Both the position numbers and the translations under genes were made by a program. Shown here one piece after another: positions 9,193 to 33,887 of a DNA stretch of 39,440 nt. Source of the DNA: a virus. The DNA lies in IMG/VR virus record IMGVR_UViG_3300048582_000255, positions 1 to 39,440 of that record. One strand, written 5' to 3'. How positions within the stretch are numbered: position 1 is the first letter of the stretch; every line of letters begins with the position of its first letter. Below the pieces are notes generated by a model. The model saw only the letters and a list, made by a program, of their open reading frames with translations, had not been told where the DNA came from and made no database searches.

Positions 9193-9248
9193 TTTTGCTA
9201 AAATTTATTTGATTAAAAATGAGGGAGTATATTTCAACTCCCATTGAA

Positions 9249-11808: not shown

Positions 11809-12318
11809 CTAAGCAACGAATAAACTCAATTGCTCATATTCTTTCATTGTTGGGATCTTTTTAGGCATCTCCAAATTATCTTTTGATTTTCTATACCGGT
11901 AATACGATTTAACCAGCGTTTCAAATTTTACCATTTCTTCATCTATCTCATAAAACTTCATGAAACGAAGAATTCCATTATAGTAATCTCCTTTTACTTC
12001 ATATTGCATCGTAACGAAATCAAATAAGGTTTGGTGAAATAGATCATCTAGTCTACCATCTATTTGCCAGATGGTTTCATCATCTATTAAGAAGCGTCCA
12101 TGCTTTGCAGCTGTGGAACTCATGGAAATGATAAGTGAATCATTTAGATGTTTTTCTTCTTTGAGTGATACACTCTTGAAGTTTTCTTTGAAACTCTCAA
12201 AAATGATTGCTGAAATATGACACTTTCCAATCGATAATTTGAAAGGATCTACATCATGATTTTTGGCAATAAACTGCTTCAAATAACTTCTAATCGGAAT
12301 TGAACATGTTATTTCCAT
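11809..12318 (-). CDS. Hypothetical protein ending in a QLSLF clamp-binding motif
   Basis: A 169-aa protein, mostly helical and charged. The last residues are EQLSLFVA, the consensus eubacterial beta-sliding-clamp-binding pentapeptide (QL[SD]LF) at a C-terminus, where such motifs normally act. The gene sits beside the GTGCTA hexamer cluster and is driven by a promoter overlapping one repressor operator (12440-12450). This suggests a replication role or an interaction with the host replisome, perhaps as an origin-associated factor. No DNA-binding motif is clear. Confidence 0.65.
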   Translation of the reverse strand: MEITCSIPIRSYLKQFIAKNHDVDPFKLSIGKCHISAIIFESFKENFKSVSLKEEKHLNDSLIISMSSTAAKHGRFLIDDETIWQIDGRLDDLFHQTLFDFVTMQYEVKGDYYNGILRFMKFYEIDEEMVKFETLVKSYYRYRKSKDNLEMPKKIPTMKEYEQLSLFVA

Positions 12319-12416
12319 ATCTGGGCATTTAATTGGTTACATTTTCGCACCTTATTTTCTATTATTTTATACTCAAAAAGCATGTTTTTTGACGTTGAAA
12401 AAACAATAGTTGCCAT
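12309..12416 (-). CDS. Possible 35-aa leader or small protein
   Basis: An ATG at 12416 opens a 35-codon frame (MATIVFSTSKNMLFEYKII...) that ends 10 nt inside the start of the QLSLF gene, an arrangement allowing translational coupling. It lies directly downstream of the promoter at 12448. No homology is recognised and the composition is AT-driven, so it could be a chance frame. Confidence 0.3.
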   Translation of the reverse strand: MATIVFSTSKNMLFEYKIIENKVRKCNQLNAQIWK

Positions 12417-12439
12417 TTTTGAGACATTTTTTAAAAAAT

Positions 12440-12478
12440 AAGTGTTGCAAAAATACAAAAAACAAAAATCACGTGCAA
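12440..12478 (-). promoter_or_regulatory. Promoter with one repressor operator
   Basis: Minus strand: TTG (12478-12476), a 20-nt spacer and TATTTTTG (12455-12448), matching the Bacteroidota consensus. AAGTGTTGCAA at 12440-12450 is an exact reverse copy of the 11-bp operator and covers the -7 box, so the QLSLF gene should belong to the repressor regulon. Confidence 0.6.
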
Positions 12479-12493
12479 CAAAATGCAATTTTT

Positions 12494-12740
12494 GTGCTAC
12501 CCGTGCTACCGTGCTACCAAAAAGGGTTAAGTTTCTGATAATGAGAGGTAGCACGGTTAGCACGGTGTGCTAATTTGTGCTGTTTTGGTTAGCACAAATT
12601 AGCACGACCAACTAAAGATTTTTTCGACCGTGCTAATTTGTGCTAACTTGTGCTAACCTGTGCTAACTTCATAAAGTATTGATTTATATATATATAAGTA
12701 CTTTTTTATACTAAAAGTTAGCACGGTAGCACGGTAGCAC
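12494..12740. repeat. Cluster of 15 GTGCTA/TAGCAC hexamers, iteron-like
   Basis: GTGCTA starts at 12494, 12503, 12511, 12567, 12630, 12640, 12650 and 12660. TAGCAC starts at 12549, 12558, 12590, 12600, 12719, 12727 and 12735. Spacing within groups is 8-10 bp, with four copies exactly 10 bp apart. An AT-only stretch (12680-12715, with TATATATATAT) lies between the last two groups. Iterons plus an AT-rich segment are the layout of replication origins and of dense operator arrays. No gene fits here. Confidence 0.7.
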
Positions 12741-13095
12741 ACCTTTTTATAAATTTTTGAAAGTTGAAAAAAAAAATCTCAAAAATGCCGATTTTTAAAA
12801 ATTTAACAAGAGTGTTAAAAATTTAGGAATCCAAGAATGATTTTATAAAAAAACTGAAATTTTGGAAAAGGTTTTTGAATGGTTGTTGCAGGAATGTTGC
12901 GTTGATTTTTCTTTTGTTGAATTTGTGCAACAAAATGCAACAAATTGCAACGTAATTTTTTTGGCAGTTTCAGTTATTAGATTTAACATTGCAACGACAA
13001 ACAAAATCACAGGGTACAAATACATCCTGATTTATTATATTAACAACATGCCAGTGCTAAAGCGTTTTGGAGACGTATCTTTCTTCCCTGTGAAG
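12741..13095. other. AT-rich non-coding stretch with scattered TTGCAAC half-sites
   Basis: This stretch is very AT-rich with long A and T runs. Between about 12895 and 12955 it has several GTTGC/GCAAC motifs related to the repressor operator (for example TGCAAC repeated at 9-10 bp steps), and one more near 12990. I see no convincing gene; an open frame on the plus strand here is made largely of these repeats. It may be part of an origin or a weak operator array. Confidence 0.4.
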
Positions 13096-13127
13096 TTGTT
13101 TGTCAGGTTAGCATTGGCATATATTTG
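13096..13127 (+). promoter_or_regulatory. Bacteroidota-type promoter for the 89-aa gene
   Basis: TATATTTG (13120-13127) is a perfect -7 box. TTTG at 13099-13102 lies 17 nt upstream and TTG at 13096 lies 21 nt upstream. The ATG follows 7 nt after the -7 box, so the mRNA leader would be very short or absent. Confidence 0.6.
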
Positions 13128-13134
13128 AAAAGTT

Positions 13135-13404
13135 ATGACAGACGTAAAAGATTTAAGAGATCAAGCATTAGAAGATTTCAAGAAGAAGATGGATGCTCAC
13201 ATCTCATGCGATGAGCAAATCAAACTAATGAAAGGCCTAGAAATTCTAGTAGAGAATTTTGAGAATGGTGGAGTGCGTAAGTTCCAAGAAGAGTTGATGC
13301 GAATGAGTTTTGAATACCTGCACAAAGCCAGTGAGGAAACGGTAACAGAACACGATTGTATTTCGCTGTATATTTTGAATACAGCTTTCACACGAATGTT
13401 GTAA
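13135..13404 (+). CDS. Small acidic hypothetical protein
   Basis: An 89-aa, mostly helical, acidic protein (MTDVKDLRDQALEDFKKKMDAH...). No HTH or enzymatic motif is visible. It forms a single-gene unit with its own promoter and the terminator at 13453-13482, between the hexamer cluster and the tail operon. Its position just ahead of a late promoter would suit a late regulator or anti-host protein, but this is inference only. Confidence 0.65.
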   Translation: MTDVKDLRDQALEDFKKKMDAHISCDEQIKLMKGLEILVENFENGGVRKFQEELMRMSFEYLHKASEETVTEHDCISLYILNTAFTRML

Positions 13405-13452
13405 CTTTGAGCAACTTCTTTTACGAGTTGCTTGCATAGTTCTACAAATGAA

Positions 13453-13482
13453 AAGCCTGAGTGTAATGCTCAGGCTTTTTTT
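13453..13482 (+). terminator. Rho-independent terminator before the tail operon
   Basis: AAGCCTGAG (13453-13461) pairs with CTCAGGCTT across a 7-nt loop, followed by a T-run. It ends the 89-aa gene transcript. Late promoter B starts 4 nt after it. Confidence 0.85.
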
Positions 13483-13485
13483 ATT

Positions 13486-13520
13486 GTCCTTGCGCGCGCG
13501 CGTACGTATGTGGAAATTTG
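13486..13520 (+). promoter_or_regulatory. Late promoter element B (tail operon)
   Basis: GTCC then TTG (13490-13492), 20 bp of alternating purine-pyrimidine (CG repeats then TACGTATGTG), GAAATTTG (13513-13520), 4 nt, ATG at 13525. Spacer length and boxes match the other three copies. It resembles a Bacteroidota promoter with G for the first T of the -7 box. Confidence 0.75.
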
Positions 13521-13524
13521 TTTC

Positions 13525-14034
13525 ATGGCAACGTACAAAAATTTAAACGATTACATGCTGGAATTGGCTACCTTGAACAAGGGCATTCTGCATTCATCCA
13601 CTCAAAAAAGATTCTACACCATGAGCATGGAAGAGTTTGTTTTGGGTGTAGCCTCTGAGCTTCCTACAGCTGGAGAGAAGTGCAACATGATTATGATCAA
13701 GTTTCACAACAAATTACAACACACCACGCACACCTGGAACAACCTTCAGGTATTATTTTACATCGTAAAAAATTGCACCAACCAAACCGCTGAAGATGAA
13801 TTGGAGGCAATGGATGTTTGTGAAAATGTGCTGGATCAAATCTTGAACCGCATGAACTTTGATTCCTTAGAAGGGCATCCGTTGTTTGATGGTTCGTTTG
13901 ATGAAATTGATGATGTTACGATCGCTCCTGAAGAAATCTATTACAATGGAATCAAGTTCGTTGGTTGGAGCGCTTACCTTGAATTGAAAAATCAACGCAC
14001 TTTGTGTTATAATCCTAATGACTTCGAAGAATGA
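13525..14034 (+). CDS. Hypothetical tail-operon protein
   Basis: A 169-aa protein, helical in its first two thirds, with an acidic C-terminus (YNPNDFEE). The ATG at 13525 (MATYKNLNDYM) is chosen because an earlier in-frame ATG at 13432 precedes the terminator and late promoter. It is the first gene of the tail/fibre operon and its stop overlaps the next ATG (GAATGA). A tail-completion role is plausible by position; no family is recognised. Confidence 0.65.
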   Translation: MATYKNLNDYMLELATLNKGILHSSTQKRFYTMSMEEFVLGVASELPTAGEKCNMIMIKFHNKLQHTTHTWNNLQVLFYIVKNCTNQTAEDELEAMDVCENVLDQILNRMNFDSLEGHPLFDGSFDEIDDVTIAPEEIYYNGIKFVGWSAYLELKNQRTLCYNPNDFEE

Positions 14035-16505
14035 TAACTATCAATCAACATCCTTATCCGTGCTCATTTACCAAAAATGGAATTGAATTCGGTATCAGTA
14101 GCAATCAACTGTTTGTTGCTCCAAAGATTTTCCCATCCATGCAGTTGGAAATTATGGATCTTGCTTTGCTCGGAAATTTCTGCAGCTTCAAATTCATCAA
14201 TCCAGAAACCTTGGAAATTGAAAGCATTCGCGTGTTGGCAGTACAAGCTCCTGAGTTTCCCGGTGAGGTGGCAGATGGTGCAAGTGTACCACCTTTAACC
14301 ACAACTGCTGATTATGCAGACATGGTACTTCAAGCGCTGAAAAAAATCAAAATTTTGAACGCTTACTACACCTTGAGCAGAACCGGAACCGTAATTGATC
14401 TTGTTGCCAAATACCCGATATCGGAATTGGTATTCACTGATTTTACAACAAATGGCGGAGGTTCTTATTTTCAAGCAACGATTCAAGAAGGTGTGCATGA
14501 TCCAAGCGAACGCGAAGGTTACGAATGTAAGGCGGTGATATACATCCAAAATGCCTATGAATCGGAATACTACGAAATTGCAGGAACGATTGATGTTGTG
14601 TTGGATCCAATGGCAACTGCTCAGGTTGACATATCTGAGATTTTGCACGAAGCAATTCAAAACCAACTTGAAAACACGCCCATCCCAATAGATAGCGAAT
14701 TGATCTATTTTTCTAAAAACCTTCGCAAATACTACGTTGAATTTGTGGAGTACTGGGATTTGGAAGCGCTTGTTGATCGCACAACATCTGATATCTATTT
14801 TGCGCACTTTGGAGGTGTAAGTGAAACGGATGAGCAAGAAACCGAACCAGTAACCTTAATTGCTGGAAATCGAAATTTCCTTACATGGTTGCCAAGTGGT
14901 AAACGAATTTCCGAAAATCAGAAAGATTGGTTGAGTTGGATGAATACGCGTGCATTGTCTCGCTTCTTGATTCGCATCAAAGTATATGCAAGCACCGGTG
15001 TAGTGGATATCGATTACCACATCACAGAATTCTTTCCCCTTTGGCATACAATTACCTTTCAAACCAATTGGAAAGACATTGCCCTGGATGATGCTCTTTC
15101 AGGAGAACTGTACAACAAGTATTCTTTTCAGATATGGAACTCAGCAGGAGAAGAGGCAATTTCTGAAGAATTCATTTATTACAAAGATCAAGTTCCTTGC
15201 ATCAGGAAAACGATACTGTATTTCAATCCATTCTATGTGCCTGAAACATTCGTAACATTTGGTCCATGGAGCGAGAATTTGGAAATATCTCAAGAGCTCG
15301 CACAACGAAGCCAGCAATACAACCTTACAAGAAGTAGAGCCAGTCGCTTTTCATTCAACAAAACAAGTGGCTTCTCCATCTCAGCCGAAACGCAAGAAAT
15401 GAAGCAACTGGAAGCAGAGCGCTTGAGTTCTATGATTTCAGCATCTGAAGCATTTGTATTTGAAAACAACCGTTGGATTCCCATTCTATTTTCTGCTGAA
15501 AGCGTGAATGTGTACATCAGCAACAATTGGTTTAGACGTGTAGCATTTTCGGCAGTGAAAGCAGAAATCAATGAAAACGTTTCTTTCTTCAACGGTCATC
15601 CGCATTTGGTCATCACTCAATTGGATTCAGGTGTATTCCACTTTACAGTTGAAGGCAATGGAATCGAAATAGAAACGTATGGCAATATGCTTCTTTACAT
15701 TGGAAATACATTTTCTGGAACGTATGTTCATGATGGAGAAAAATACGAAGCAAGTACGTTAAACGAAACAGAGTATCAAGCGCGCGTGGATGTAACAGAT
15801 GTAAATGGTAGAACGTATTTGATTGTGAAGAATTTCAGGTACCAGAAGCCAATAGTATCTTGGATACATGACGAAACATTTGGAGATTACCAATTTGTAT
15901 TAGGAAAAGAAGCAGCTGCTTTTGTATCAACGGTGGCTGTAGATTGGGGCTTAGGAACAGGATTCGAAGATGAAACCTACAACGCATCAACCACCATCCT
16001 AAAAACAATTCTCTTAGCTGGACAAAAAACAGTGCGCTTGAAGAAAACCAATTTCAACGATATCATTGAATTCAAATTTATTGGTTCGGCATCTCTTGTA
16101 AGAAGTACAGGAAGAGAGATGAATATTTCAGCGCTTCCAAACTTACAAGTTCTACATTTTGTAGCGTGTGCAATCAATCAAACGGTATATCTTAATTCGC
16201 TGCTTTCATTGGAAGAAGTTGTGATAACAGGAAATCCAGATCTTACAGATGTAGAAATTGGATATCACAAAAATTTAGAAATTCTAAATCTCGAGAACAA
16301 CAATCTTTCTTCAGATGCCATTGAGCGCATACTGCTCCAGCTCGCAACATTCTCAGGAATGAATACAGCGGTACCAGTAATCACATTCACAGACAATCCT
16401 GGAGCAAGCGACCTCACAACAATTTCCAATGATATTATCAATGGTTTGGGAGAATATGCAGGCAAAGGCTTGGTTGCTGATTTAGGTTGGACCATAAACG
16501 TGTAA
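14031..16505 (+). CDS. Large tail protein with C-terminal leucine-rich repeats
   Basis: An 824-aa, beta-rich structural protein. Residues from about 680 to the end contain LRR-like units: LPNLQVLHFVACAI, LLSLEEVVITGNPDL and HKNLEILNLENNNL follow the LxxLxxLxLxxN pattern. The first 650 residues look like repeated beta domains with many aromatic residues. LRRs in a virion protein suggest binding to a host surface ligand. It precedes the 595-aa tail protein by 3 nt. It is most likely a distal tail or receptor-binding component. Confidence 0.65.
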   Translation: MITINQHPYPCSFTKNGIEFGISSNQLFVAPKIFPSMQLEIMDLALLGNFCSFKFINPETLEIESIRVLAVQAPEFPGEVADGASVPPLTTTADYADMVLQALKKIKILNAYYTLSRTGTVIDLVAKYPISELVFTDFTTNGGGSYFQATIQEGVHDPSEREGYECKAVIYIQNAYESEYYEIAGTIDVVLDPMATAQVDISEILHEAIQNQLENTPIPIDSELIYFSKNLRKYYVEFVEYWDLEALVDRTTSDIYFAHFGGVSETDEQETEPVTLIAGNRNFLTWLPSGKRISENQKDWLSWMNTRALSRFLIRIKVYASTGVVDIDYHITEFFPLWHTITFQTNWKDIALDDALSGELYNKYSFQIWNSAGEEAISEEFIYYKDQVPCIRKTILYFNPFYVPETFVTFGPWSENLEISQELAQRSQQYNLTRSRASRFSFNKTSGFSISAETQEMKQLEAERLSSMISASEAFVFENNRWIPILFSAESVNVYISNNWFRRVAFSAVKAEINENVSFFNGHPHLVITQLDSGVFHFTVEGNGIEIETYGNMLLYIGNTFSGTYVHDGEKYEASTLNETEYQARVDVTDVNGRTYLIVKNFRYQKPIVSWIHDETFGDYQFVLGKEAAAFVSTVAVDWGLGTGFEDETYNASTTILKTILLAGQKTVRLKKTNFNDIIEFKFIGSASLVRSTGREMNISALPNLQVLHFVACAINQTVYLNSLLSLEEVVITGNPDLTDVEIGYHKNLEILNLENNNLSSDAIERILLQLATFSGMNTAVPVITFTDNPGASDLTTISNDIINGLGEYAGKGLVADLGWTINV

Positions 16506-16508
16506 ATC

Positions 16509-18296
16509 ATGATAACAATCAAAATAGACAATCGCATCATAGACATTGATCCTGATTTGGCAATTACGTTCAACTGGATAAATCCATTGTTTAGCGAAGA
16601 TGGAATCAATGAAGGCTACAGCTATTCGTTTACTTTGCCATTGACAGCGAGGAATAAACGATTGATTGATACCAAGAAACAAGATTTAAGTGTGCAAATT
16701 TACTTCAAGGGCATCTTGCTTGAGACTGGCAGAACCGTAAAGGTAAAAGATAACACTTCCAACATTGAAGTGAATATCTTAACTGAAGGCAGTGGATTCA
16801 GAAGAGATGTTGAAGGTACACTTTTACCTGATCTAACATTAGACATTGTTCCGGTATGCTCCGATGCAGATTCACCCACTGAGAAGCTGGACAAATGGAA
16901 AGCGCACATGGAGCAGATTCTTGCTGAAGCAGAACCAAAGTACCAATTCCCTCAAATGTTGGTGAACTCTTATTTTGATGAGTTGGGAACAGACGAAGCA
17001 AATAGCATGTTTGAATCGATGGGAGGAAGAGTGAATGCTTTTGTTATGGGTGAAGTTCGGAGCAATTACCTGGTACCTGCATCATTTGGCTCAGGAAAAG
17101 AATGGGCAACAACTGTGGCTCCGTGTCCAATGGTAGATTATTTGCTAAAATTCATCATCAAGTATTTTGGATTCAAGCTTAAACATTCGGACCTGGAGCA
17201 AATCCAAGAGTACAAGCAACTGCTTATCTTCAACAACTATGTAAAAGATAGACACGAAATTGATGGAGCTGATTCATTCAACACGCATGGAACTGAAATC
17301 AATCTTACAGAGCACGTTCCAAAATGCGATTCTTGGAAGGTTTTCAAGTTAGTGAATGAGTTGTATGATTGCTATTTTGTGGTAAACAACAAAAGGATTC
17401 ACATCTATTCAGCAAAACAGCAATTGCAAGGTTCATATACTGATTTTTCCAAATATGTATTGGATGGAGTCACGAATGAAGATTCTTCCATTGGCACGGT
17501 AAAATACATCTATCCAATTGATGAGCAGGAAGTACTTCGCTTTCGTGATCCATTGAATGCAGTGAGGCCATTTGCACCGCAATTCTTTCCTGAAGAAACT
17601 TCCATCTTTGAGGAAAAAACATTAAGCCACGAAGCACTTAAATCTACGTATGGAATCAATTCAATTGGATTTGATCTTGATTTTGATACGCATGAGAGTG
17701 CTCCACTTCCTGAAGATAGAACAGGAACATTTGAGTACCAAGCAATCTATTTTCAAAATCAACCGCCAAAAAGCGATGAGTATGATAATGATGCAGAAAT
17801 ATTTGAGCTACTAAAAGCAGGTTACTTCAGAGGGCTTCTTGAAACAGTGGAATGGATACCAGGTGAGCCAGAACCATCTTCACCAATTCCGCATCCATTT
17901 GCATACTCTTTCAAAGAATTAATGTATTTCGCACAAAACACGGGTGTAGATATTGGAATTGATTATTCATGGGGAGCGGCTTCAATCTATCTCAATGGAG
18001 AAGATAACATGTTTGATTTTTACAAGCTGCAAAAGCTCAAATTGATTTCAGGAGATTCAATTACACGTACAAAAATCCTCAAACTTTCGCTTGCTCAACT
18101 CTTACAATTAAAGCGTTGGGAGCGCACTAAACATTATATTTCACAGAAAAATCAGTCCTTTAAAGGCATAGTGAAAGAGCTTACTTTTACTGTAACAAAT
18201 AAGGGAATATCTCCAGCTTCAGTTTCCTACTATGTAGCATCAAGTAGCAAGCGAGGAGAGTTCTCAGATGATTACACGAATGATTTTAATACATAG
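16509..18296 (+). CDS. Tail/baseplate structural protein
   Basis: A 595-aa protein whose N-terminus (IDPDLAITFNWINPLF, then GYSYSFTLPLTARNKRLI) is the kind seen in Bacteroidota phage tail proteins that occupy the hub or baseplate position. It has no transmembrane or enzymatic motif. It lies between the LRR tail protein and the fibre-like protein, in the same operon. The hub assignment is by position and general resemblance. Confidence 0.55.
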   Translation: MITIKIDNRIIDIDPDLAITFNWINPLFSEDGINEGYSYSFTLPLTARNKRLIDTKKQDLSVQIYFKGILLETGRTVKVKDNTSNIEVNILTEGSGFRRDVEGTLLPDLTLDIVPVCSDADSPTEKLDKWKAHMEQILAEAEPKYQFPQMLVNSYFDELGTDEANSMFESMGGRVNAFVMGEVRSNYLVPASFGSGKEWATTVAPCPMVDYLLKFIIKYFGFKLKHSDLEQIQEYKQLLIFNNYVKDRHEIDGADSFNTHGTEINLTEHVPKCDSWKVFKLVNELYDCYFVVNNKRIHIYSAKQQLQGSYTDFSKYVLDGVTNEDSSIGTVKYIYPIDEQEVLRFRDPLNAVRPFAPQFFPEETSIFEEKTLSHEALKSTYGINSIGFDLDFDTHESAPLPEDRTGTFEYQAIYFQNQPPKSDEYDNDAEIFELLKAGYFRGLLETVEWIPGEPEPSSPIPHPFAYSFKELMYFAQNTGVDIGIDYSWGAASIYLNGEDNMFDFYKLQKLKLISGDSITRTKILKLSLAQLLQLKRWERTKHYISQKNQSFKGIVKELTFTVTNKGISPASVSYYVASSSKRGEFSDDYTNDFNT

Positions 18297-18302
18297 TCAG
18301 TC

Positions 18303-19124
18303 ATGCCATTAACAAAAATTCAAATCGAAAGCAAAATTGATTCTTTTGTGAAAAAGAACAACAGAAAGCTGATTTCTGCTGTGAAGGTAAATGAACTCTT
18401 GCATGATATCTTAGATGCTTCTTTCAACGATGGCTCAGGCGCTGCTGAAGACACTCATCTTTTTTCTGAAAACAAAATTCTTGCAAATAATAGAAGCCAT
18501 GACATGAATGGTTTTTCAATGACTTTTCTGAAGAGTAAAGTGGAGTTTAGGGCAACTGATGGAAGTGACACTAAAGTTTTTTGGATAAGAAGGCATGATG
18601 ATGGATATGATGCTTTCTCACTCAGCGGTAGTAATATGATATCCAATATTCCAGCTGTTTTTAATCCAACTTCAGCTGGTTATGGAGTTGCAATATATGG
18701 TGCTAATTATGCTGCTCTACTTTTAGATCCAAGGAATTTTTCAGGAGGTTTTGGAAGATTTGGATTGTACGGCCAATATGCAGGATTTCAAGGATATATA
18801 TCAAATGACCTAGGCGGTGGTGATTATAATAGAAATATGATTCATTGGAGTAATGCTTTAAATACTCCTTATGATGTTGTTGGTTTAGATTGGCATGGAA
18901 CAAATTCAGGAAGTGGAGGTAATTATATTATAAAGGCCTCACATGGTGATATTAAGCTGCCTACTTCAGGTAATGGTACAAAAATAGGAACGTCAACTAA
19001 TGAAAAGTTTGCTTTTTGGGGGTCTACACCTCAAACACAGCAAGTACTTGCAACAGCAACAGGTAAATCAGTTGACGATGTAATAACTTTCTTACAAAGC
19101 ATAGGGCTTTGCAGACAATCTTAA
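18303..19124 (+). CDS. Tail fibre-like protein
   Basis: A 273-aa protein. The N-terminus (ESKIDSFVKKNNRKLISA) is a probable trimerising or attachment helix. The middle is Gly/Asn/Tyr-rich beta sequence. The C-terminus has GTKIGTSTNEKFAFWGSTP followed by KSVDDVITFLQSIGL, an ending I know from many phage fibre and appendage proteins. Likely function: host adsorption. Confidence 0.65.
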   Translation: MPLTKIQIESKIDSFVKKNNRKLISAVKVNELLHDILDASFNDGSGAAEDTHLFSENKILANNRSHDMNGFSMTFLKSKVEFRATDGSDTKVFWIRRHDDGYDAFSLSGSNMISNIPAVFNPTSAGYGVAIYGANYAALLLDPRNFSGGFGRFGLYGQYAGFQGYISNDLGGGDYNRNMIHWSNALNTPYDVVGLDWHGTNSGSGGNYIIKASHGDIKLPTSGNGTKIGTSTNEKFAFWGSTPQTQQVLATATGKSVDDVITFLQSIGLCRQS

Positions 19125-19134
19125 CACATAAACC

Positions 19135-19491
19135 ATGGCAACACAAGCACAAATTGATCAATACCTGGAAGATGGTAGTTTATGGATTACGAATGATCCG
19201 GAATTCAATTACAGAAGAAAATTCACTTTTAAGTTGATTTTTGATCCAATTGAAAAGAAAATATGGTTGGATGGAAAAGTAACCTTCCACCAAGAAGATG
19301 GAAACTTGGTTCAGATGGCAAGATTCAAAAACAACTATTGGAGAAGCCTCATTGCAGACAAAAAGCCACGCCCAGATGGTACAACAGAATATGACCATTT
19401 TGTTGAAAATGCGCGCGAACCAATTCAAATATTCAATCTAATAATTGACACAGCGCTATGGAACGCTTCACAAGGAAAGTTTGATATTTAA
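19135..19491 (+). CDS. Hypothetical tail-operon protein
   Basis: A 118-aa protein with aromatic beta-rich sequence (RRKFTFKLIFDPIEKKIWLDGK...). No family is recognised. It lies 10 nt after the fibre-like gene and is co-transcribed with it. It could be a fibre chaperone or minor virion protein; neither is shown by sequence. Confidence 0.6.
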   Translation: MATQAQIDQYLEDGSLWITNDPEFNYRRKFTFKLIFDPIEKKIWLDGKVTFHQEDGNLVQMARFKNNYWRSLIADKKPRPDGTTEYDHFVENAREPIQIFNLIIDTALWNASQGKFDI

Positions 19492-19502
19492 CACAAAAAA
19501 TC

Positions 19503-19775
19503 ATGGCAGAAGAAAACAACAACACAGAATCACCAGAGCAAAACTTGAGAAAAGAAACGCTCAAGGAGCAATCTCAAAGAGTGCTTGCTGAATTCAACGA
19601 CATCAAACAACAATTGATTGATGTGCGTAAAAAAGAATTTGAAGAATTCCAAAACAAAATTCATGCGCTTCAGCAAGAGTATGGTTTCTCCATCGAAACG
19701 CAATATACAACGCGCCATGATGGAATCATCACAGATTATTATTTCGTGGACCTCAAAAAGATTCTCAATGCTTAA
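19503..19775 (+). CDS. Coiled-coil hypothetical protein
   Basis: A 90-aa protein with a polar N-terminus (MAEENNNTESPEQN), a coiled coil over about residues 18-60 (LKEQSQRVLAEFNDIKQQL...) and a short C-terminal domain ending YYFVDLKKILNA. Its last 8 nt overlap the start of the peptidase gene, so the two may act together. Confidence 0.6.
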   Translation: MAEENNNTESPEQNLRKETLKEQSQRVLAEFNDIKQQLIDVRKKEFEEFQNKIHALQQEYGFSIETQYTTRHDGIITDYYFVDLKKILNA

Positions 19776-20328: not shown

Positions 20329-20338
20329 ATATTATAAT

Positions 20339-21502: not shown

Positions 21503-21503
21503 A

Positions 21504-21788
21504 ATGAGTGCAATTAATTTAACAGCCTTAACGAATGGTATTTTATTTGACCTTTCAGCGAGAGTAGGTGCAGGAACCACAAATGCAAAATATGTATTTA
21601 GGCCATCACATTTCCATACAATTACAAAAATTGAATTTTGGAATAACAGAATGAGTTATACTACAGTAGAAGGAACAGATTTTAATTTTTCTTACGATGG
21701 TACAGATTTTTCTAAGTTGCAAATTGATGGAGCAGATGCCACAGATAATTACGATTTATTTAACAAGTTTATAGCTAAATTAGATTAA
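21504..21788 (+). CDS. Hypothetical small virion-associated protein
   Basis: A 94-aa beta-rich protein (YVFRPSHFHTITKIEFWNN...). It starts 1 nt after the preceding stop, so it is tightly coupled to the 387-aa structural protein and may be its partner. No family is recognised. Confidence 0.6.
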   Translation: MSAINLTALTNGILFDLSARVGAGTTNAKYVFRPSHFHTITKIEFWNNRMSYTTVEGTDFNFSYDGTDFSKLQIDGADATDNYDLFNKFIAKLD

Positions 21789-21794
21789 TAAACC

Positions 21795-22406
21795 ATGAAC
21801 AATTACAGAGAATTAGTGCCATTCTTCTACAAGTGGGAAGGTGGCTTATCAAGAGACGTGAACGATTCACAAGCTAAATTTCCGTGCCCAACGCCTTACA
21901 AAGGAAAGAGTGGCTACCACACTAATAAAGGAATTGCCTATTCTACGTGGGTGAGCTTTTTCGGTAAAACCAATGATTTGCGATTTTTGGAAATGAATCA
22001 CGAAGATTGGGGAGATATTTTCAAAGCTGGCTACTGGAACAAAGTACTTGGTGATCATGCTCCTTATCAATCATTGGCTGAAGTATTGACTTCTTGGGCT
22101 TGGGGTTCTGGAAGCGTAACAGCAATTAGACAATTGCAAGGCATGTTAAGAAAGCAAGGAAAGAACATTGCTAGAGATGGAAAACTTTCTGCAACTGGAG
22201 AAACATTCAGAGCATGTGCTGAGTTTAGCGAATTAGGATTGTTTAATCTGTGTGTTGCTCACAGACGTGCATTTTTCCACTATATCACCACTGAAGCCAA
22301 CGGAAAAACGGCAGCCGAACGCCAACGCTTCAGAAACAACCGGGTGTTCCTTCGTGGTTGGTTAAATCGCTTGGATGAATTTGAAAAAACTTTTAAGCCT
22401 AAATAG
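21795..22406 (+). CDS. GH108-family lysozyme (endolysin)
   Basis: A 203-aa muramidase. FFYKWEGGLS carries the catalytic Glu (about residue 15) of the glycoside hydrolase 108 family, followed by GYHTNKGIAYSTW, the equivalent of the TNxGIT motif. The C-terminal part (about 75-200) has the helical peptidoglycan-binding look typical of the family (WAWGSGSVTAIRQLQGML, ALxxRRAFF-like segment). There is no signal peptide, so release needs the holin encoded at 36115-36690. It is the last gene of the tail operon. Confidence 0.85.
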   Translation: MNNYRELVPFFYKWEGGLSRDVNDSQAKFPCPTPYKGKSGYHTNKGIAYSTWVSFFGKTNDLRFLEMNHEDWGDIFKAGYWNKVLGDHAPYQSLAEVLTSWAWGSGSVTAIRQLQGMLRKQGKNIARDGKLSATGETFRACAEFSELGLFNLCVAHRRAFFHYITTEANGKTAAERQRFRNNRVFLRGWLNRLDEFEKTFKPK

Positions 22407-22419
22407 TTACACAAAAACG

Positions 22420-22455
22420 AAAAGCCCGATTTCAAATGAAGTCGGGCTTTTTTGC
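22420..22455. terminator. Bidirectional terminator between lysozyme and tape measure genes
   Basis: AAAAGCCCGA (22420-22429) pairs with TCGGGCTTTT (22442-22451), with A-runs to the left and T-runs to the right. It can therefore end both the plus-strand tail operon and the converging minus-strand tape-measure operon. Confidence 0.9.
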
Positions 22456-22457
22456 GT

Positions 22458-25400
22458 TTATGATTTGAGCTGATCCAATTGCGTTTCTCGCTTTCTCAAA
22501 TCTTCAATTTCTGAATCTCCAATCTTAGCGCGTAGGTGTGGGAGATATTGCAACAAGGCTCTATTTACTGCGCTTGCTTCCTTAATTGCTTGCATATACA
22601 TATCACCGCTTCCAGCTGGCAAACTTCCCATATTCACACCACCATCAGCAAACTGATTTAATCGTATCGCTTCAATGGCTTGCACATGTGCCAATACTTG
22701 TGGATTTCGAAGCAAGTGATTTGGCGTGTAATATTCAGGACCTCGCTCACTTGCTAATACCACAGGCCTATTTGGCAACATGCCACCGCGATGCGTTCCA
22801 ATGTACTTGGCTCTGTAGTTCCTGCCATCTTTAGCACCTGTTACGTTGTGATATCCACCATCCGCAAACTGTGGAATTGGCTGTGAAGCAATCAAGGCAA
22901 CTTGTGCCGCTCCAGCTGCAAGAGCAATCCCCATTGTGATAGGATTTGGAGCTGCCTTTACAACTGCCAAAGCTGCTGCAATTGTTGCTTGTACAATAGC
23001 CAATTGCTTTTCTTTTTCAGCCTGTTCGGTTTTGATGCGATTCTGTTCGGCCAAAGAATCTTCTTCAATTTGTTTGCGCTGTAAATCGTATTCCTCTTGG
23101 CTTAAAATCTTGTTTTGAAGCTCTTCATCCAAGGCGCTTATCTGAGCATCTTTGCGCTCATCAATTCGGCTCAATTCGCGGTTTGCTTCAGCTTGGTTGA
23201 GTTGTCCAATGATATCCAACACTTGCGACATGGAAGAAAGCATATTTTCAATGCGTTCGCGATCCATTGCCTTGAGCTTATCAACGTGTGTTCTGTGGTT
23301 CTGCTCAATCAATGCTTTGTGCTCAACATCCAGTTGCTCCATGCGCGTGTCGAATTCCTCTTGGGAAATTTCATCCTGTGCATATTGGCTTGCAAGTGCC
23401 GATTTTTTGGCTTCAGTTTCTTTTTGAATTCGTTCATCCAACAAAGTCAACAACTGGGCTTGTGCTTTTCTGTAGCCTTGCACATCACCTTCCAAAACAG
23501 AATCAAGTGCCAATTGAGCCTTGGAGATCTTCAAATCCAGAATCGCATCTTCAAGCGTAACGCGTTGCTTCAGTTCCTTCTCGTTTTGCTCACGTGTTGA
23601 AGCCTCTTTTGCATTTTTGGCTAAGGTGTCGTATTTCGCTTGGATTTCGGCTTTCTTGCTTTCCAGTTCCTCAGCTTTCATTTGCTCCAACAACGCCAAT
23701 TGCTCTTGAGCTCTCAGTCCAATATCACCTTTTGTTTTGGCAATTTTGGCCGCTGCTTCGATATCTTTTTGGTATTTATCGTTGATTGTTTTGTCCAGGA
23801 TAAACAATTCTTTTTCTGCACCTTCCTGAAGCTTGGAAAGTTTCTCTTCATAGATTCTATCAACGTTCAATTTCTCTGCATTCTCAATGATTGAGTTCAA
23901 ATCATCTTGAAGCTTTTTCATGTTGTCGTTGTGCTTCTTCTGTGCAGCGCGTTGTTTCTCCAAGGATTTTTCCTTGTTTTCGGCTGCTTTTGTTTCTGCT
24001 TCTTCTTTCTTCTTTTCGGCAGAAGTTTGAGCATTTAGCGCCTCTTGATTCGCTTTTTCTGCCATGCGCAACGAAGCATTCAAGCCTTTTATTTCGGCTT
24101 CCATCGCTTTGCGCTTCTTTGGATCAGTCACCTTTTCCATGCGCTTGGTAATAAGCTCAATGTTCTTTCTTGCATTTTCTGCCATTTCGGCATGTACTGC
24201 ATAACTAGAACCTGCAGAAAGGTTCATGGATTCGATGGATTTTTTTACGGTGGCAAAATCAGCATCTAAATTGCGCAAATTCTTTTGGGCTTTCTTTTGG
24301 TTTTCATCTGCATCAGAATAATCCCATGCGGCCATCAATTTTCCGAAGCTAGCAATCATACCATCGTTGCTCTTGTTTAATATCTCGGAGCGCAAACGCT
24401 GTTTTTCGATGGTAGTTGAAATGATTTCCTGAAGGAGTTTTTCCTGCTCAGCCACCTTTGCAGTTTCAATGGCTTGTTGCACCATAGTAGCGTTCATTTC
24501 TTTCTGAAGCGCGTTCATTTCCTCCGTTGTGATTTTATGAAAATCAACGTTTGCAGTAAGCTCAGGATATTTCTCATTCAACTTCGCAATGATGCTTTCA
24601 TTTTCTTCCTGCAAGCGTGCTTTTTCGGCTTCACTGATATTGCTTGCCTTCAGCGCTTCGTTATTCTTCATCAACGATTCAGTAAGCACCGTGTTTGCTT
24701 CTGTTTCAGCCAGCACCAAATCAAGCACCTCTTGTGTGATATCGTTTAATCTGATTTTTGCCTCAAACATTTCTGAGAGTGGTCCAATGCCAAAGGTCAA
24801 CGCATTTGCGAATTTCAAGAATTGCGTTTCCAATTGCAAGGTATCACCTTCTTTGAGGGCTGTAATCAAGTCGCTTGTCCAGTTTAGTACATCGGTACCC
24901 ACTTGCACAACTCCACGGAAAACGCCACTAGCTCCACCCATGGAAAGCGTTAATCCTTCCCATGCAGAACCAAGAGATTTTAAATCTCCATCCAAGTTGT
25001 CGTTGTTGATTTTTTGTTGCTCGTAAGCGGTATTTGTTCCGGTAACGGCATCGGTCAACGCTTCCACTTTATCCACGTTTCCAAGGATGGTTTTGGCAGC
25101 TACAATGTTTTCTTTTCCGAAAATCTGCATCATGGCGGTTGCATCACCAGCCACTTTGCTCATTTCAGCCAAACGCTCATTCAATGGAATTTGTGTGTTT
25201 GTAACCTTCGCTGCATCCACGCCATATTTCTCCAATTGCTTCACAGCATTTGCAGGCAACGCTTCAAGGCCTTGCATGGTAAGAATCACGTTTCGGAGTT
25301 GTGTTCCTGCTTCAGCTCCTTTGAGGTTTTTTTCAGCAAGGAGTTCGGCCAATGCAACCGATTCTTCGATACCAACATTGTAGCCATTCAATACAGCTCC

Positions 25401-26132
25401 TGATTTATCAATCGTATCGCTCAAATGCGTAATCTCAGCAGAACCAGCCAACGAACCTGCCGCCAATACATTCACAGCCCTTGCAGTATGATCTGCTGAA
25501 AGTTCATATTGATTGAGTATTCCAGTAACAGCACGTGCCGCTGGTTCCAAGTCCATTTCGGCAGCTTCAGCCAGTGTGATTGTTTCTTTGGTAACATCGT
25601 TCAATGCCTGTTTATTTGCCAACAATTCAGGCTTAGCTCCACCAATAATCTTGTAAGCCTCCACTACTTGCGTAGCAGATAGCGTGGTTGATTTTCCAAG
25701 ATCAATGGCTTCTTTCTTGTAGAAAGCTAAATCTTCAGCACTTGCATTTGTTAAGGATTTCAAGCTTGAAAGCCCTTTTTCCATCTCCTTGTTGTTGTTG
25801 TACCAAGAAGAGATTCCAGCGGTAAGTCCACCAATAGCCATTGTAGCTACACCAATAACACCGGCAACGGGTGCCATCTCAGAAATTAGGCTTTTTAGGT
25901 TGGATTGTGCAGGCTTGTAGGCATCGGCAACGCCTCTAATTTGCGTGCGGTGAGCTGTCAAGGCTTGAGAAGCTTGCGAAAGTTCACCCATTTTCTTCTT
26001 GTACTCATCAGAGTTTCGTGGAAGATCTTTGATTTCGCGATTCAGGATATTTACTTTCTTCTTGAGCTCAGTAAGCGTTGCTCCAGCTTGTGAGCCATCA
26101 ATCCAAACGTTTGTTTTTTGTGTGGTAGCCAT
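22458..26132 (-). CDS. Tail tape measure protein
   Basis: A 1224-aa protein. About residues 80-400 match the TP901-type tape-measure core (STTLSATQVVEAYKIIGGA, ARAVTGILNQYELSADH, TQLRNVILTMQGLEALP). Long coiled coils fill roughly 560-1010, and a short hydrophobic helix region (VQATIAAALAVVKAAPNP) lies near 1060-1090. Near the C-terminus are two QFADGG repeats. By the usual rule of about 1.5 angstrom per residue the tail would be near 180 nm, so the particle is a siphovirus. Unlike most siphophages, the gene sits in its own minus-strand operon, convergent with the other tail genes. Confidence 0.9.
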   Translation of the reverse strand: MATTQKTNVWIDGSQAGATLTELKKKVNILNREIKDLPRNSDEYKKKMGELSQASQALTAHRTQIRGVADAYKPAQSNLKSLISEMAPVAGVIGVATMAIGGLTAGISSWYNNNKEMEKGLSSLKSLTNASAEDLAFYKKEAIDLGKSTTLSATQVVEAYKIIGGAKPELLANKQALNDVTKETITLAEAAEMDLEPAARAVTGILNQYELSADHTARAVNVLAAGSLAGSAEITHLSDTIDKSGAVLNGYNVGIEESVALAELLAEKNLKGAEAGTQLRNVILTMQGLEALPANAVKQLEKYGVDAAKVTNTQIPLNERLAEMSKVAGDATAMMQIFGKENIVAAKTILGNVDKVEALTDAVTGTNTAYEQQKINNDNLDGDLKSLGSAWEGLTLSMGGASGVFRGVVQVGTDVLNWTSDLITALKEGDTLQLETQFLKFANALTFGIGPLSEMFEAKIRLNDITQEVLDLVLAETEANTVLTESLMKNNEALKASNISEAEKARLQEENESIIAKLNEKYPELTANVDFHKITTEEMNALQKEMNATMVQQAIETAKVAEQEKLLQEIISTTIEKQRLRSEILNKSNDGMIASFGKLMAAWDYSDADENQKKAQKNLRNLDADFATVKKSIESMNLSAGSSYAVHAEMAENARKNIELITKRMEKVTDPKKRKAMEAEIKGLNASLRMAEKANQEALNAQTSAEKKKEEAETKAAENKEKSLEKQRAAQKKHNDNMKKLQDDLNSIIENAEKLNVDRIYEEKLSKLQEGAEKELFILDKTINDKYQKDIEAAAKIAKTKGDIGLRAQEQLALLEQMKAEELESKKAEIQAKYDTLAKNAKEASTREQNEKELKQRVTLEDAILDLKISKAQLALDSVLEGDVQGYRKAQAQLLTLLDERIQKETEAKKSALASQYAQDEISQEEFDTRMEQLDVEHKALIEQNHRTHVDKLKAMDRERIENMLSSMSQVLDIIGQLNQAEANRELSRIDERKDAQISALDEELQNKILSQEEYDLQRKQIEEDSLAEQNRIKTEQAEKEKQLAIVQATIAAALAVVKAAPNPITMGIALAAGAAQVALIASQPIPQFADGGYHNVTGAKDGRNYRAKYIGTHRGGMLPNRPVVLASERGPEYYTPNHLLRNPQVLAHVQAIEAIRLNQFADGGVNMGSLPAGSGDMYMQAIKEASAVNRALLQYLPHLRAKIGDSEIEDLRKRETQLDQLKS

Positions 26133-26518
26133 TACATTTCCATTTTAGCAGATGAAATTTCCAATTCATCCAGAATTAATTTTGCGTAGAACTCATTGAA
26201 ATTTGAATCAAGTTCACCTTTGTTTTTTTCGATGGCAGGAGTACGCCAGGGAGTAGGTTTTAGGGTTACGTTTTTGCCAAAGACATTCGAAGCTCCATTT
26301 TCATGGAAACGCCCGTAAAATTCATAAGCGAATTGGATTCTATCGACCTCAATGCCTGTTTTGCGCACTGAATCTTTGAGTGAAGTGAGTAGCTTTTTTT
26401 TATCCAATAATCCCATTTTTTGGATATTGATGGCCATATCTTGCAAAACATCCTTGCTGAATTTCCGTGCAATTGCCACGGCTTCCTTCTGATCGTATTT
26501 ATTCCAGTCTACACGCAT
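26132..26518 (-). CDS. Tail completion/head-tail joining protein candidate
   Basis: A 128-aa protein starting MRVDWNKYDQKEAV. YEFYGRFHENGASNVFGKN followed by PTPWRTPAIEKNK resembles the R-xG-xxxG ... W-x-P-A pattern of HK97-gp10-like tail-completion proteins. The ATG at 26518 is preferred because upstream in-frame ATGs lie within late promoter C. The stop overlaps the tape-measure start by 1 nt. Confidence 0.55.
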   Translation of the reverse strand: MRVDWNKYDQKEAVAIARKFSKDVLQDMAINIQKMGLLDKKKLLTSLKDSVRKTGIEVDRIQFAYEFYGRFHENGASNVFGKNVTLKPTPWRTPAIEKNKGELDSNFNEFYAKLILDELEISSAKMEM

Positions 26519-26523
26519 AAATA

Positions 26524-26558
26524 CAAAATTCCGCATACGTACGCGCGCACGCAAGGAC
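26524..26558 (-). promoter_or_regulatory. Late promoter element C (tape-measure operon)
   Basis: Minus strand: GTCC, TTG (26554-26552), 20 bp that alternate purine-pyrimidine, GAATTTTG (26531-26524), 5 nt, ATG. The copy and its neighbouring terminator are nearly identical to element D at 39221-39288. Confidence 0.75.
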
Positions 26559-26594
26559 AAAAAAAAGCCCAGTGAAATAATCACCGGGCTTTTG
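26559..26594. terminator. Terminator upstream of late promoter C
   Basis: AAGCCC(A)GTGA pairs with TCAC(C)GGGCTT (26565-26591) around an AATAA loop. A-runs on the left give an eight-T tail on the minus strand. The hairpin is identical to that at 39262-39288, so terminator plus promoter is a repeated cassette. Confidence 0.85.
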
Positions 26595-26601
26595 ATTTTC
26601 A

Positions 26602-27047
26602 GTTATGGGGCTGAGCACCACAACTGATAAGAAATAACTTGTTTTTAATTATCACCTGCATTGTCTAAATAGACAATGCAGGTGGTTTTTTAACTGTTGT
26701 GCTCAGCACAATGGTTGAATCTTACATTTGTTTATTTAATTCATCTGCTCCAGTTATTTGCTGTTTAGCAACAAACTGAGACAAAATTCCGTCTTCTTTC
26801 AAGTTCTGAAATTGTCTCCAAAAAGCAAAGTACTGGACTTTTTTATCCAGTACTTTTATAAAAAAACAAGTTACTTGTGATATATGGTCTCTGTAGACCA
26901 TACATCTTATAAATCAACTGTAATGCTAAGCGTTACAGTTGATCTCAAATCTTGCCTCAAATTTACCTGCACTGTTTGGCAGGTAATTCGTTCAAAATTG
27001 TCTGCAAATAGTATAATCGCCGTTTTTTTTAACGCCGATGTTCTGTA
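26602..27047. repeat. Array of seven hairpins
   Basis: Perfect or near-perfect stems are: 26610-26618/26699-26707 (9 bp); 26653-26667/26670-26684 (15 bp, 2-nt loop, then six T on the plus strand); 26827-26837/26846-26856 (11 bp); 26883-26890/26895-26902 (8 bp); 26913-26923/26933-26943 (11 bp, extendable inward to about 14); 27863-free but separate 26963-26970/26979-26986 (8 bp); and 27016-27024/27031-27039 (8 of 9 pairs). Such density is far beyond ordinary terminators. Two stems share ACCTGC/GCAGGT. The region may be a structured RNA, a terminator array or protein-binding DNA. Confidence 0.6.
26722..26901 (-). CDS. Possible 59-aa protein inside the hairpin array
   Basis: An ATG at 26901 opens a 59-codon frame (MVYRDHISQVTCFF...) ending with TAA at 26722-26724. 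The second half is convincingly protein-like (YFAFWRQFQNLKEDGILSQF, then TGADELNKQM), with normal codon variety. The first half is encoded by two of the hairpins. It may be a real small gene whose mRNA is strongly structured, or the end of an older gene into which hairpins were added. No family is recognised. Confidence 0.4.
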   Translation of the reverse strand: MVYRDHISQVTCFFIKVLDKKVQYFAFWRQFQNLKEDGILSQFVAKQQITGADELNKQM

Positions 27048-27608
27048 TTAATCATTTAAAGGTTCAACAACTTCTTCAGCTCTGAATAATTCCAATTGAG
27101 AAACATTCATTTTGGAACGAGCGTAACTTGCTTGGCGTTCACGTAGCTTCAGCATTTCCAATTCTAAAAATCTAGGATCTTGGTTTAATTCTTCCTGAAG
27201 CTTTTCAATTTGGTTTTTTCGCTTGGCTGATTCTTTCAAGCTATCTTCTAATTTCTGATAATGGTCAAAAAGAAGTTTGTCAATTGTGGTGTAAACCCAA
27301 AGTTCAAATTCAGGACTTAACCACGCGGCAAATTTTAAAGCCAAAATTCGGTGCATAAAAGTACTAACACCATTCTTTGTTTGAATAATTTCTTCCCTCG
27401 ATAAAGTTGCCGAGCTTCCACCTACAGGTGTAAGCTCTAATAATTTTATGAACTCTTTTGTTGGCTCAATTTTAAGAAAAACGTCAATTCTTTTATTAAA
27501 AATTTTTGCCATTTGAGTAGCGTTCACCATTACTCCATTTTTACCTTTCAAGGTAAATTCAATTTCTGTATCTCTGTACAGAAAATTGGTTGTTTGTTTT
27601 ACTTCCAT
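27048..27608 (-). CDS. KilA-N domain protein with C-terminal QLELF motif
   Basis: A 186-aa protein. The KilA-N DNA-binding domain covers about residues 10-105 (GVMVNATQMAKIFNK, GVSTFMHRILALKFAAWLSPEFELWV). A coiled coil follows, with IEKLQEELNQDPRFLELEML, and then SQLELFRAEEV near the end. The QLELF fits the beta-clamp-binding consensus. Its C-terminal module resembles that of the antirepressor at 28208-28738. KilA-N proteins of phages act as regulators or antirepressors. It starts 3 nt after the stop of the 74-aa gene. Confidence 0.8.
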   Translation of the reverse strand: MEVKQTTNFLYRDTEIEFTLKGKNGVMVNATQMAKIFNKRIDVFLKIEPTKEFIKLLELTPVGGSSATLSREEIIQTKNGVSTFMHRILALKFAAWLSPEFELWVYTTIDKLLFDHYQKLEDSLKESAKRKNQIEKLQEELNQDPRFLELEMLKLRERQASYARSKMNVSQLELFRAEEVVEPLND

Positions 27609-27611
27609 TTG

Positions 27612-27836
27612 TTAATTATTTACGAATTGATAATTTACCACACGTTGCTTCAAAAGTTGCAAGGCTTCTGCTTGGCTGGAGGCGGATGCTCCGAATGTGC
27701 GCCCTTGAATTTTGCAGGCGGCCGAAACTTTGTTCATTTTGAAAACTAATGTGATTTTGGTAGCATTGAATAATGCTGTTGCTTTGCGCAGCACATCTAA
27801 GTTGATGTGTTCTGCATTTCCTTTTTTGGTTTGCAT
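27612..27836 (-). CDS. Hypothetical basic protein, 74 aa
   Basis: A basic protein (MQTKKGNAEHINLDVLRKATALF...). I start it at 27836 rather than at an in-frame ATG at 27875, because the latter lies in a stable stem of the leader RNA. It has a mixed alpha/beta look with the segment KITLVFKMNKVSAACKIQGR. No family is recognised. The gene is first in a unit with KilA-N, behind a promoter overlapped by an operator and a long structured leader. Confidence 0.6.
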   Translation of the reverse strand: MQTKKGNAEHINLDVLRKATALFNATKITLVFKMNKVSAACKIQGRTFGASASSQAEALQLLKQRVVNYQFVNN

Positions 27837-27855
27837 ATTAAAAAAGTGTATGCGC

Positions 27856-27967
27856 CGCACCCTGTAGGGTTGCAAACCCTTTTCAGAGAAAAGAATTGCG
27901 ACCTTTCGGTTACGCTACCCATGGGGTGCGACTATCGTAAATAAATTAATTCAGATTTTCATCTGAA
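27856..27967 (-). ncRNA. Candidate structured leader RNA with multi-helix junction
   Basis: On the minus strand, TTCAGAT-GAAA-ATCTGAA (27967-27950) is a 7-bp GNRA-capped hairpin. Then a closing stem CGCACCC/GGGTGCG (27930-27924 with 27862-27856) encloses three hairpins: GCG-ACC-GAAA-GGT-CGC (27915-27898, 2-nt bulge, GNRA loop), CTTTTC/GAAAAG (27893-27879) and AGGGTT/AACCCT (27880-27866). Promoter and first start codon (27836) flank it, so it lies in a 5' UTR of about 140 nt. No known riboswitch class is recognised. A REP-like DNA palindrome is the alternative. Confidence 0.45.
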
Positions 27968-27981
27968 AAGAGTTTGCACGA

Positions 27982-28014
27982 CAAACATACATCTTTTTTT
28001 TAATTGCAACACTT
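27982..28014 (-). promoter_or_regulatory. Promoter with one repressor operator, upstream of the KilA-N unit
   Basis: Minus strand: TTG (28009-28007), 17-nt spacer, TATGTTTG (27989-27982). An exact operator copy, TTGCAACACTT, occupies 28004-28014 over the -33 box. This places the KilA-N unit in the repressor regulon. The stretch 28015-28207 holds no supported gene. Confidence 0.65.
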
Positions 28015-28207
28015 TTTTTTGAAAGTTTTATCTTTTGTAAGGTTTCAAAAATTAATTTTCGTTAGGGCAAACAGATTATATTTCTTCGCTGAATTATGGG
28101 GTTTTTTTCGACCTGAATGGACAGGGTGTCCAAATAGGTAGCAAAAAAACTCTCTTTTCATATTTTTGAGATACCTGTTTGCCTACAAGTTAATATAAAA
28201 GAATCTG

Positions 28208-28738
28208 TTAATTAAACAATGCCAATTGTGAAGCTGTAACTTCTTTATCTAATGAGTTTAATTGCTTTTTTGTTTGATTGACGTTTGATTTTAATTCTTG
28301 CAAACGTTTGTATTCAGGATTATCATTCAAAGCCGCTTGAAGTTTTTCAATTTCTACTTCTGTTTTTGTTTTTTCTAAAAGTATCTTTTCCCTTCTAGTA
28401 ACAGAACCATGAAAATGATTGTATATAATTCTGTAGCATTCCCATTTGTACTGTTGTAATTCTTGATTTTTAGAATTTATGCTAAAAATCCAACCGTAAA
28501 TAAAAAATTCTGGCAAGCATGTCATTTTTTGAAGTCGGTTTGAGCTATCGTGCATTGTGTGGGTACACAATACACCGCTTAGAAAAATGTCATTTTTTAA
28601 GTTCTTATATTGTTGAATATAATCTATTCCCAATGCTTCGCAAATTGGTTTCACTGCAATCCAGTTTGTACCTTCTACATCTAGGAAAAATATTGTTTTC
28701 CCATTAAATTCTAAAAATTTTCTAATCTCGTTTTTCAT
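28208..28738 (-). CDS. Phage antirepressor-like protein with C-terminal QLALF motif
   Basis: A 176-aa protein. The N-terminal half fits the P22-antirepressor/BRO-N type: IFFLDVEGTNWIAVKPICEALGIDYIQQYKNLKND, then CLPEFFIYGWIFSINSKN and LQQYKWECYRIIYNHFHGS. A coiled coil follows with IEKLQAALNDNPEYKRLQEL, and the end is TASQLALFN. The QLALF end resembles a sliding-clamp-binding motif and matches the KilA-N protein design. Antirepressors inactivate phage repressors, so it may control the HTH repressor at 33888-34253. It is the last gene of the replication operon. Confidence 0.8.
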   Translation of the reverse strand: MKNEIRKFLEFNGKTIFFLDVEGTNWIAVKPICEALGIDYIQQYKNLKNDIFLSGVLCTHTMHDSSNRLQKMTCLPEFFIYGWIFSINSKNQELQQYKWECYRIIYNHFHGSVTRREKILLEKTKTEVEIEKLQAALNDNPEYKRLQELKSNVNQTKKQLNSLDKEVTASQLALFN

Positions 28739-33828: not shown

Positions 33829-33857
33829 AAAATGCAGTATATTCGAAATGAATGGTA

Positions 33858-33865: not shown

Positions 33866-33887
33866 CTTCATACAAACACAGAAAATT

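Follow-up and report, generated by a model that had tools for sequence, protein, structure and literature searches.

Three proteins encoded in one phage record carry, at or near their C-terminus, a peptide of the form Q-L-x-L-F, the signature by which bacterial proteins bind the sliding clamp, DnaN. The record, IMG/VR IMGVR_UViG_3300048582_000255, was analyzed over its full length of 39,440 nucleotides, hereafter the window. One of the three proteins is antirepressor-like (Ant), one contains a KilA-N domain, and the third, 169 residues long and here called p169, belongs to an unnamed family. Few regulator-type proteins of DNA viruses are as widespread as those with a KilA-N or BRO-N domain; to our knowledge, most of them have no assigned role. 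The locus raises the question of whether such proteins address the replication clamp of the host, and what for. As argued below from sequence comparisons, the tails of Ant and of the KilA-N protein are very probably sliding-clamp-binding peptides.

Clamp-type tails in the window and in related phages

The three open reading frames, all on the minus strand, were confirmed. Ant ends in TASQLALFN and p169 in MKEYEQLSLFVA. QLxLF is found within the last 22 residues in 3 of the 47 annotatable window genes, precisely these ones; shuffles preserving composition (2000 trials) yield on average 0.01 such genes, and never more than 1. The presence of the tails, pointed out by the initial annotation, is thus beyond doubt, while its description is to be amended: the strict form QL[SD]LF, cited there, occurs in p169 (QLSLF), Ant and the KilA-N protein matching the general QLxLF only, and in the latter the motif is not terminal, since 11 residues follow the F. 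All three peptides fit the clamp-binding consensus, Q-phi-x-[LM]-[FL], of which a hexameric form, Q-phi-x-[LM]-x-[FL], is also described (PMC11139829).

The N-terminal part of Ant (about residues 5-111) is a P22_AR_N/BRO-N domain (PF10547, E=1.8e-18, 67 bits, cut-off 30.7), and the protein matches PHROG 524, anti-repressor Ant (2.6e-19). The KilA-N domain of the 186-residue protein is equally clear (PF04383, E=3.3e-16, 59.5 bits, cut-off 23.8). The two genes are frequently adjacent in relatives, as they are in the window.

Homologues of both proteins were retrieved by N-terminal patterns from genome and virus collections, and are therefore unselected for their tails; sets were thinned to 60% identity, and nearly all relatives with a name belong to the Bacteroidota. 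When viral contigs were scanned with the KilA-N protein or p169 as a single protein, nothing matched; alignment queries succeeded. A tail was scored as clamp-type when Q..[LMI][FW] or Q..[LIMF].F was present within the last 30 residues. Such tails are found in 46 of 82 Ant proteins (2.4 in shuffled tails, at most 7 in 300 trials) and in 21 of 40 KilA-N proteins (1.1 in shuffled tails, at most 5 in 300 trials); control motifs, either reversed or with N, K or D replacing Q, occur 0-2 times in the same tails. Shuffling thus rules out a chance origin, both in the window and in the Ant and KilA-N families. Poor conservation in orthologues had been named beforehand as an outcome speaking against clamp binding: the peptide proved conserved in these two families, not in p169, where it is present in 4 of 31 members.

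The profile of conservation is also informative. In pairwise alignments, with the partner not chosen for the motif, the highest identities are reached at Q, L and F (0.48, 0.46 and 0.53 for Ant; 0.58, 0.52 and 0.62 for KilA-N), compared with a background level of 0.13-0.37 at position 3 and at most positions of the flanks. Clamp peptides owe their binding to Q, position 4 and the hydrophobic residue at the end (PMC11139829), and the observed profile is what they would be expected to show. The tails include pentameric (QLNLF, QLDLF, QPSLF) and hexameric (QLKIDF, QLSIDF) forms, as well as variants (EPQLF, EKTLF). These classes turn over rapidly: 36 changes are counted on the tree of the Ant N-terminal domain, against 44 with shuffled labels, and supported sister pairs may differ in class (e.g. 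L041, pentameric, and L053, hexameric; L numbers indicate collected loci).

The tails are also specific to these proteins. A strict scan for the C-terminal motif scores 77 of 197 Ant and KilA-N proteins, against 22 of 2420 other genes of the same loci; these 22 include 5 DinB fetched as controls, one more DinB (L058), several p169 relatives or Ant proteins missed by the first search, one DNA adenine methylase and two PcfK-like proteins. Among KilA-N and Ant proteins of phages from outside the Bacteroidota, 1 out of 20 has a clamp-like peptide (QPFLPF, Moraxella), compared to 67 out of 122 (Fisher, P=2e-5); none of 24 further KilA-N proteins from Bacteroidota genomes has one, compared to 21 out of 40 (P=4e-6). 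The similarity of Ant to its P22 namesake is confined to residues 8-109 (tblastn): the C-terminal part of P22 Ant (300 residues) is unlike that of the window protein, and no motif is present at its end. Nothing supported an extension of the tail to ORF6N proteins, the 4 matches found in 23 proteins being located in an internal helix or chance-like.

A different ending was met in a second KilA-N subgroup (L038:7291-7893, L175, L179, L198, L229 and others), many members of which share a conserved LTxExxxxMxxLF end, seen also on one Ant protein (L066). From its sequence, this is possibly a clamp-peptide variant lacking the glutamine; M-x-x-LF tails, present on many KilA-N proteins of Bacteroides-type phages, were left out of the counts above. 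Clamp-like endings were noticed on two other kinds of proteins: PcfK-like proteins (PF14058; L129:4659-5060 and L131:1-402) end in QQMSLF, a possible clamp peptide on a mobile-element protein, and a phage D12-class DNA adenine methyltransferase (L008:5756-6580), which may be clamp-tethered, ends in QPTLF. In the cultured Polaribacter phage Leef_1 the antirepressor, gp31, ends in EQLDLFKKE and the KilA-N protein in QIKLDLGGI (L004:15527-16060 and 8992-9537).

A shared C-terminal module and the host clamp

The peptide is the end of a larger unit, as KilA-N and Ant proteins have in common a module of about 70 residues, composed of a coiled coil and the peptide. When the last 75 residues are compared, KilA-N tails match Ant tails with E values down to 1.5e-21 (L208/L031) and 3.6e-19 (L229/L066); the tails of the two window proteins match at 1e-4. 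A scan with the tail module alone did not find a third N-terminal domain. Regulators of this kind commonly swap N-terminal domains over a common C-terminal part; the new element, as far as can be judged from sequence, is the clamp-type end of that part.

The host side is compatible with such a contact. One Bacteroidota DnaN, aligned with solved clamps, matches them well and retains two segments of the pocket, TD-x-H-x-L and MP, as TDAHKL and LVMPVM; binding of the tails is therefore plausible. Y-family polymerases are established clamp clients by family, and the peptides of the host enzymes (QLNLF, QINLF, QLDLF, QPDLF, QPTLF, QLKFDF, QLSFPF) take the same forms as the phage tails. The assignment of the three tails to the clamp-binding signature, made by the initial annotation, accordingly gains in weight: the signature recurs in two unrelated regulator families, is conserved in orthologues, keeps its contact residues and alternates between known peptide forms.

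As to replication genes, the window encodes a primase, while DnaN (PF00712), Pol A and Pol III alpha were not found in the record, which is linear and may be a fragment. With a primase and none of the other three, the phage is presumably copied by the host replisome. Host clamps stay on newly copied DNA, as established for E. coli and B. subtilis (cited in PMC4776307). A helix-turn-helix protein, encoded at 33852-34253, is a candidate repressor.

Features of the window, with the evidence for each
Feature	Position	Strand	Evidence
p169, 169 residues, unnamed Bacteroidota phage family, first gene before the head maturation protease, ends in EQLSLFVA	11809..12318	-	HMM, AlphaFold2
QLSLF, putative clamp-binding peptide of p169, residues 163-167	11818..11832	-	motif position; 4/31 family tails
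Array of 15 GTGCTA half-sites (GTGCTAAC / GTGCTACC), both orientations, upstream of p169	12494..12740	.	repeat analysis
KilA-N protein, 186 residues, C-terminal coil, SQLELF near its end	27048..27608	-	PF04383, homologues
QLELF, putative clamp-binding peptide of the KilA-N protein, residues 171-175	27084..27098	-	motif position 171/186, tail statistics
Ant, 176 residues, antirepressor-like, coiled-coil helices, C-terminal SQLALFN	28208..28738	-	PF10547, PHROG 524, homologues, AlphaFold2
QLALF-N, putative clamp-binding peptide of Ant, residues 171-176	28211..28228	-	motif position, tail statistics
DnaG-type primase, putative AAA/helicase part, upstream of Ant and KilA-N	29718..32978	-	PF08275, PF01807, Toprim

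The p169 family and its repeat array

p169 has no match in Pfam or NCBIfam, its best PHROG match scores E=0.04 (none is below 0.01), and a search of annotated phages returned no match. A profile built from four members nevertheless collects about 40 relatives in the loci examined. In 16 of the 17 loci with enough sequence (L036, L018, L143, L061 and gp39 of Leef_1 among them) the gene precedes that of the head maturation protease by no more than 2.5 kb; in the window, the protease lies 121 bp downstream of p169. In most loci p169 is located downstream of Ant/KilA-N and of the primase, a count which is biased because the loci were mostly collected through Ant.

The initial annotation had described p169 as origin-adjacent, without offering support; what the gene does adjoin is the dense array of short repeats listed in the table. 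There, the motif GTGCTA(A/C)C generates the 15 half-sites within 247 bp, in clusters at 8-10 bp with an AT-rich spacer. Dense arrays of heptamers, specific to the family and in both orientations, are found directly upstream of p169-family genes in 26 of 39 regions (e.g. L036:9127-9445, L018:7635-7889, L175:5446-5737, L143, L100, L061, L048), but downstream in only 1 of 33.

The AlphaFold2 model of p169 (predicted local distance difference test, pLDDT, 89) has a beta-alpha-alpha N-terminus, reminiscent of ribbon-helix-helix proteins. A fold search found no solved relative, the best PDB match (E=0.8) being an F-plasmid relaxosome chain, so the ribbon-helix-helix-like assignment, made from the model, is a guess; among viral proteins, one relative was found, in Leef_1. 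Probably, p169 binds DNA in a sequence-specific manner, its target being the array upstream of its own gene, which would mark a late promoter or an origin. The arrays suggest that Bacteroidota phages have, at the early/late boundary, a DNA-binding family without a name, together with its cognate array. The enrichment of clamp-type tails in this family is suggestive, not strong, and since the tail is a minority trait, a clamp role for p169 is the weakest of the three. TrfA-like iteron initiators also have a repeat array next to their gene, but their Rep/winged-helix fold is not recognizable in p169, as indicated by the Pfam and PDB results above.

Possible roles of the tails and known systems

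The favoured reading, given a probability of about 0.6, is that Ant and the KilA-N protein, and with less certainty p169, are DNA-binding phage regulators, whose C-terminal peptide docks in the pocket of the host DnaN. Its components differ in strength: binding of the tails to DnaN is highly likely, tethering as their purpose has roughly even odds, and the regulatory outcome of docking is the weakest part. Bacteroidota phages would have placed one C-terminal module, a coiled coil plus a clamp peptide, behind two N-terminal domains, BRO-N and KilA-N. On phage DNA under replication, the regulator would be retained by the host clamps loaded there, and the protein would accumulate on that DNA; the coiled coil may offer two peptides to two pockets of one clamp ring. 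The action of the regulator, be it repressor removal or antirepression, an early-to-late switch, or late gene control, would then be coupled to phage replication.

Several observations weigh against this reading. About 30% of Ant homologues have no recognizable peptide, and a further 15% feature LF variants, with E, R or P-type tails. In the AlphaFold2 model of Ant (pLDDT 88) the motif is placed at the end of a long helix, extending to residue 175, with lower confidence in the last block; known clamp peptides, unlike this helix, bind in an extended form. The rarity of the tail in p169 counts here as well (0.66 members expected, and the observed number reached by 1 of 300 shuffles), and the missing polymerase and clamp genes are not proof of dependence on the host, because the record may be a fragment.

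Among the alternatives, the closest in strength, although unlikely, is that the proteins bind the phage origin and bring there the host clamp or clamp loader, as RK2 TrfA does. The clamp-binding motif of TrfA is required for replisome assembly at oriV (PMC4980987), Ant and KilA-N are encoded near the primase, and p169 beside the array and an AT-rich stretch, at a local switch in GC skew. This switch, however, coincides with a change in gene direction; Ant and KilA-N belong to regulator families, not known as initiators, no array belonging to them was found, and most array-bearing p169 relatives lack the tail. For the takeover of the host replisome, suggested by the initial annotation, no direct evidence emerged. 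It is improbable, to a greater degree, that the tails act by filling the DnaN pockets, slowing host replication, blocking translesion polymerases or killing the host, even if strong consensus peptides suffice to inhibit the clamp, and Gp168 of phage Twort inhibits one, though via the DNA channel (PMC11139829). The tails sit on conserved DNA-binding-type domains with shared coils, and not on free small inhibitors; many are non-optimal, with E or R at position 1; and poisoning of the clamp becomes less likely because the phage itself seems to need it.

Least probable, by a small step, is a different short linear motif or a mere coiled-coil end, serving another partner, degradation or packing. 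The helix predicted for Ant would fit, as would the departure of about half of the homologues from the strict pattern. Yet a free position 3 and an optional residue between L and F (QLxLF/QLxLxF) suit the clamp pocket, not heptad packing or an end signal, and known host clamp clients show the same peptide forms. An end-specific signal, similar to an SSB tip or a degron, is ruled out, because 0-14 residues trail the motif.

Docking on the host clamp thus remains the preferred explanation, and clamp-type tails on gene-control proteins of Bacteroidota phages suggest gene switches tied to replication. More tentatively, these phages may have repeatedly built replication-coupled switches by equipping BRO-N, KilA-N and, in some lineages, p169 with a clamp-docking module that can be exchanged, the host clamp serving as both sensor of and tether to replicating phage DNA, in a host-clamp counterpart of T4 late transcription. 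If so, temperate phages would read the host replication clamp, which would explain replication-timed lytic switching without a phage-encoded clamp, and the tails would be natural ligands of the clamp that have evolved in many hosts. With a conserved peptide aimed at one defined host partner, the role of KilA-N/BRO-N proteins could be tested directly and cheaply, for which Leef_1, carrying both, is a usable laboratory system; at the early/late boundary, the p169 family with its own array can be tested as a second element.

Clamp-binding tails on mobile-element proteins are already known; for KilA-N, BRO-N and antirepressor proteins no earlier report of a link with the clamp was found in the open-licence papers searched, which agrees with the initial annotation without proving novelty. 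P22 Ant and the KilA-N proteins of non-Bacteroidota phages share the N-terminal domain (PF10547 or PF04383) with the window proteins, while their C-termini are unrelated. Bacterial clamp clients, such as Pol II, Pol IV/DinB and Pol III alpha (PMC11139829), likewise carry, C-terminally or close to that end, a short Q-phi-x-[LM]-[FL] peptide or the hexameric one; those are host replication and repair enzymes, whereas here putative clamp peptides are found on phage regulator-type proteins. Clamp-binding insertion sequence (IS) transposases (PMC4549789) are similar in being mobile-element proteins with a C-terminal Q-L-x-L-F, acquired repeatedly by convergence, but belong to other protein families and serve transposition. 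RK2 TrfA (PMC4980987), also a mobile-element DNA-binding protein with a clamp-binding motif, differs in being an iteron initiator.

The late transcription factors gp33 and gp55 of phage T4 hold the clamp, gp45, by interchangeable C-terminal tails, and are activated by it (PMC2988020). T4 uses a clamp of its own, with no counterpart in the record (no PF00712; the record may be a fragment), and its factors bind RNA polymerase, whereas the host clamp and KilA-N/BRO-N domains would be used here; no sequence relation is claimed. What the two systems would have in common is the use of small phage regulators, with C-terminal clamp-binding tails, in a replication-coupled logic.

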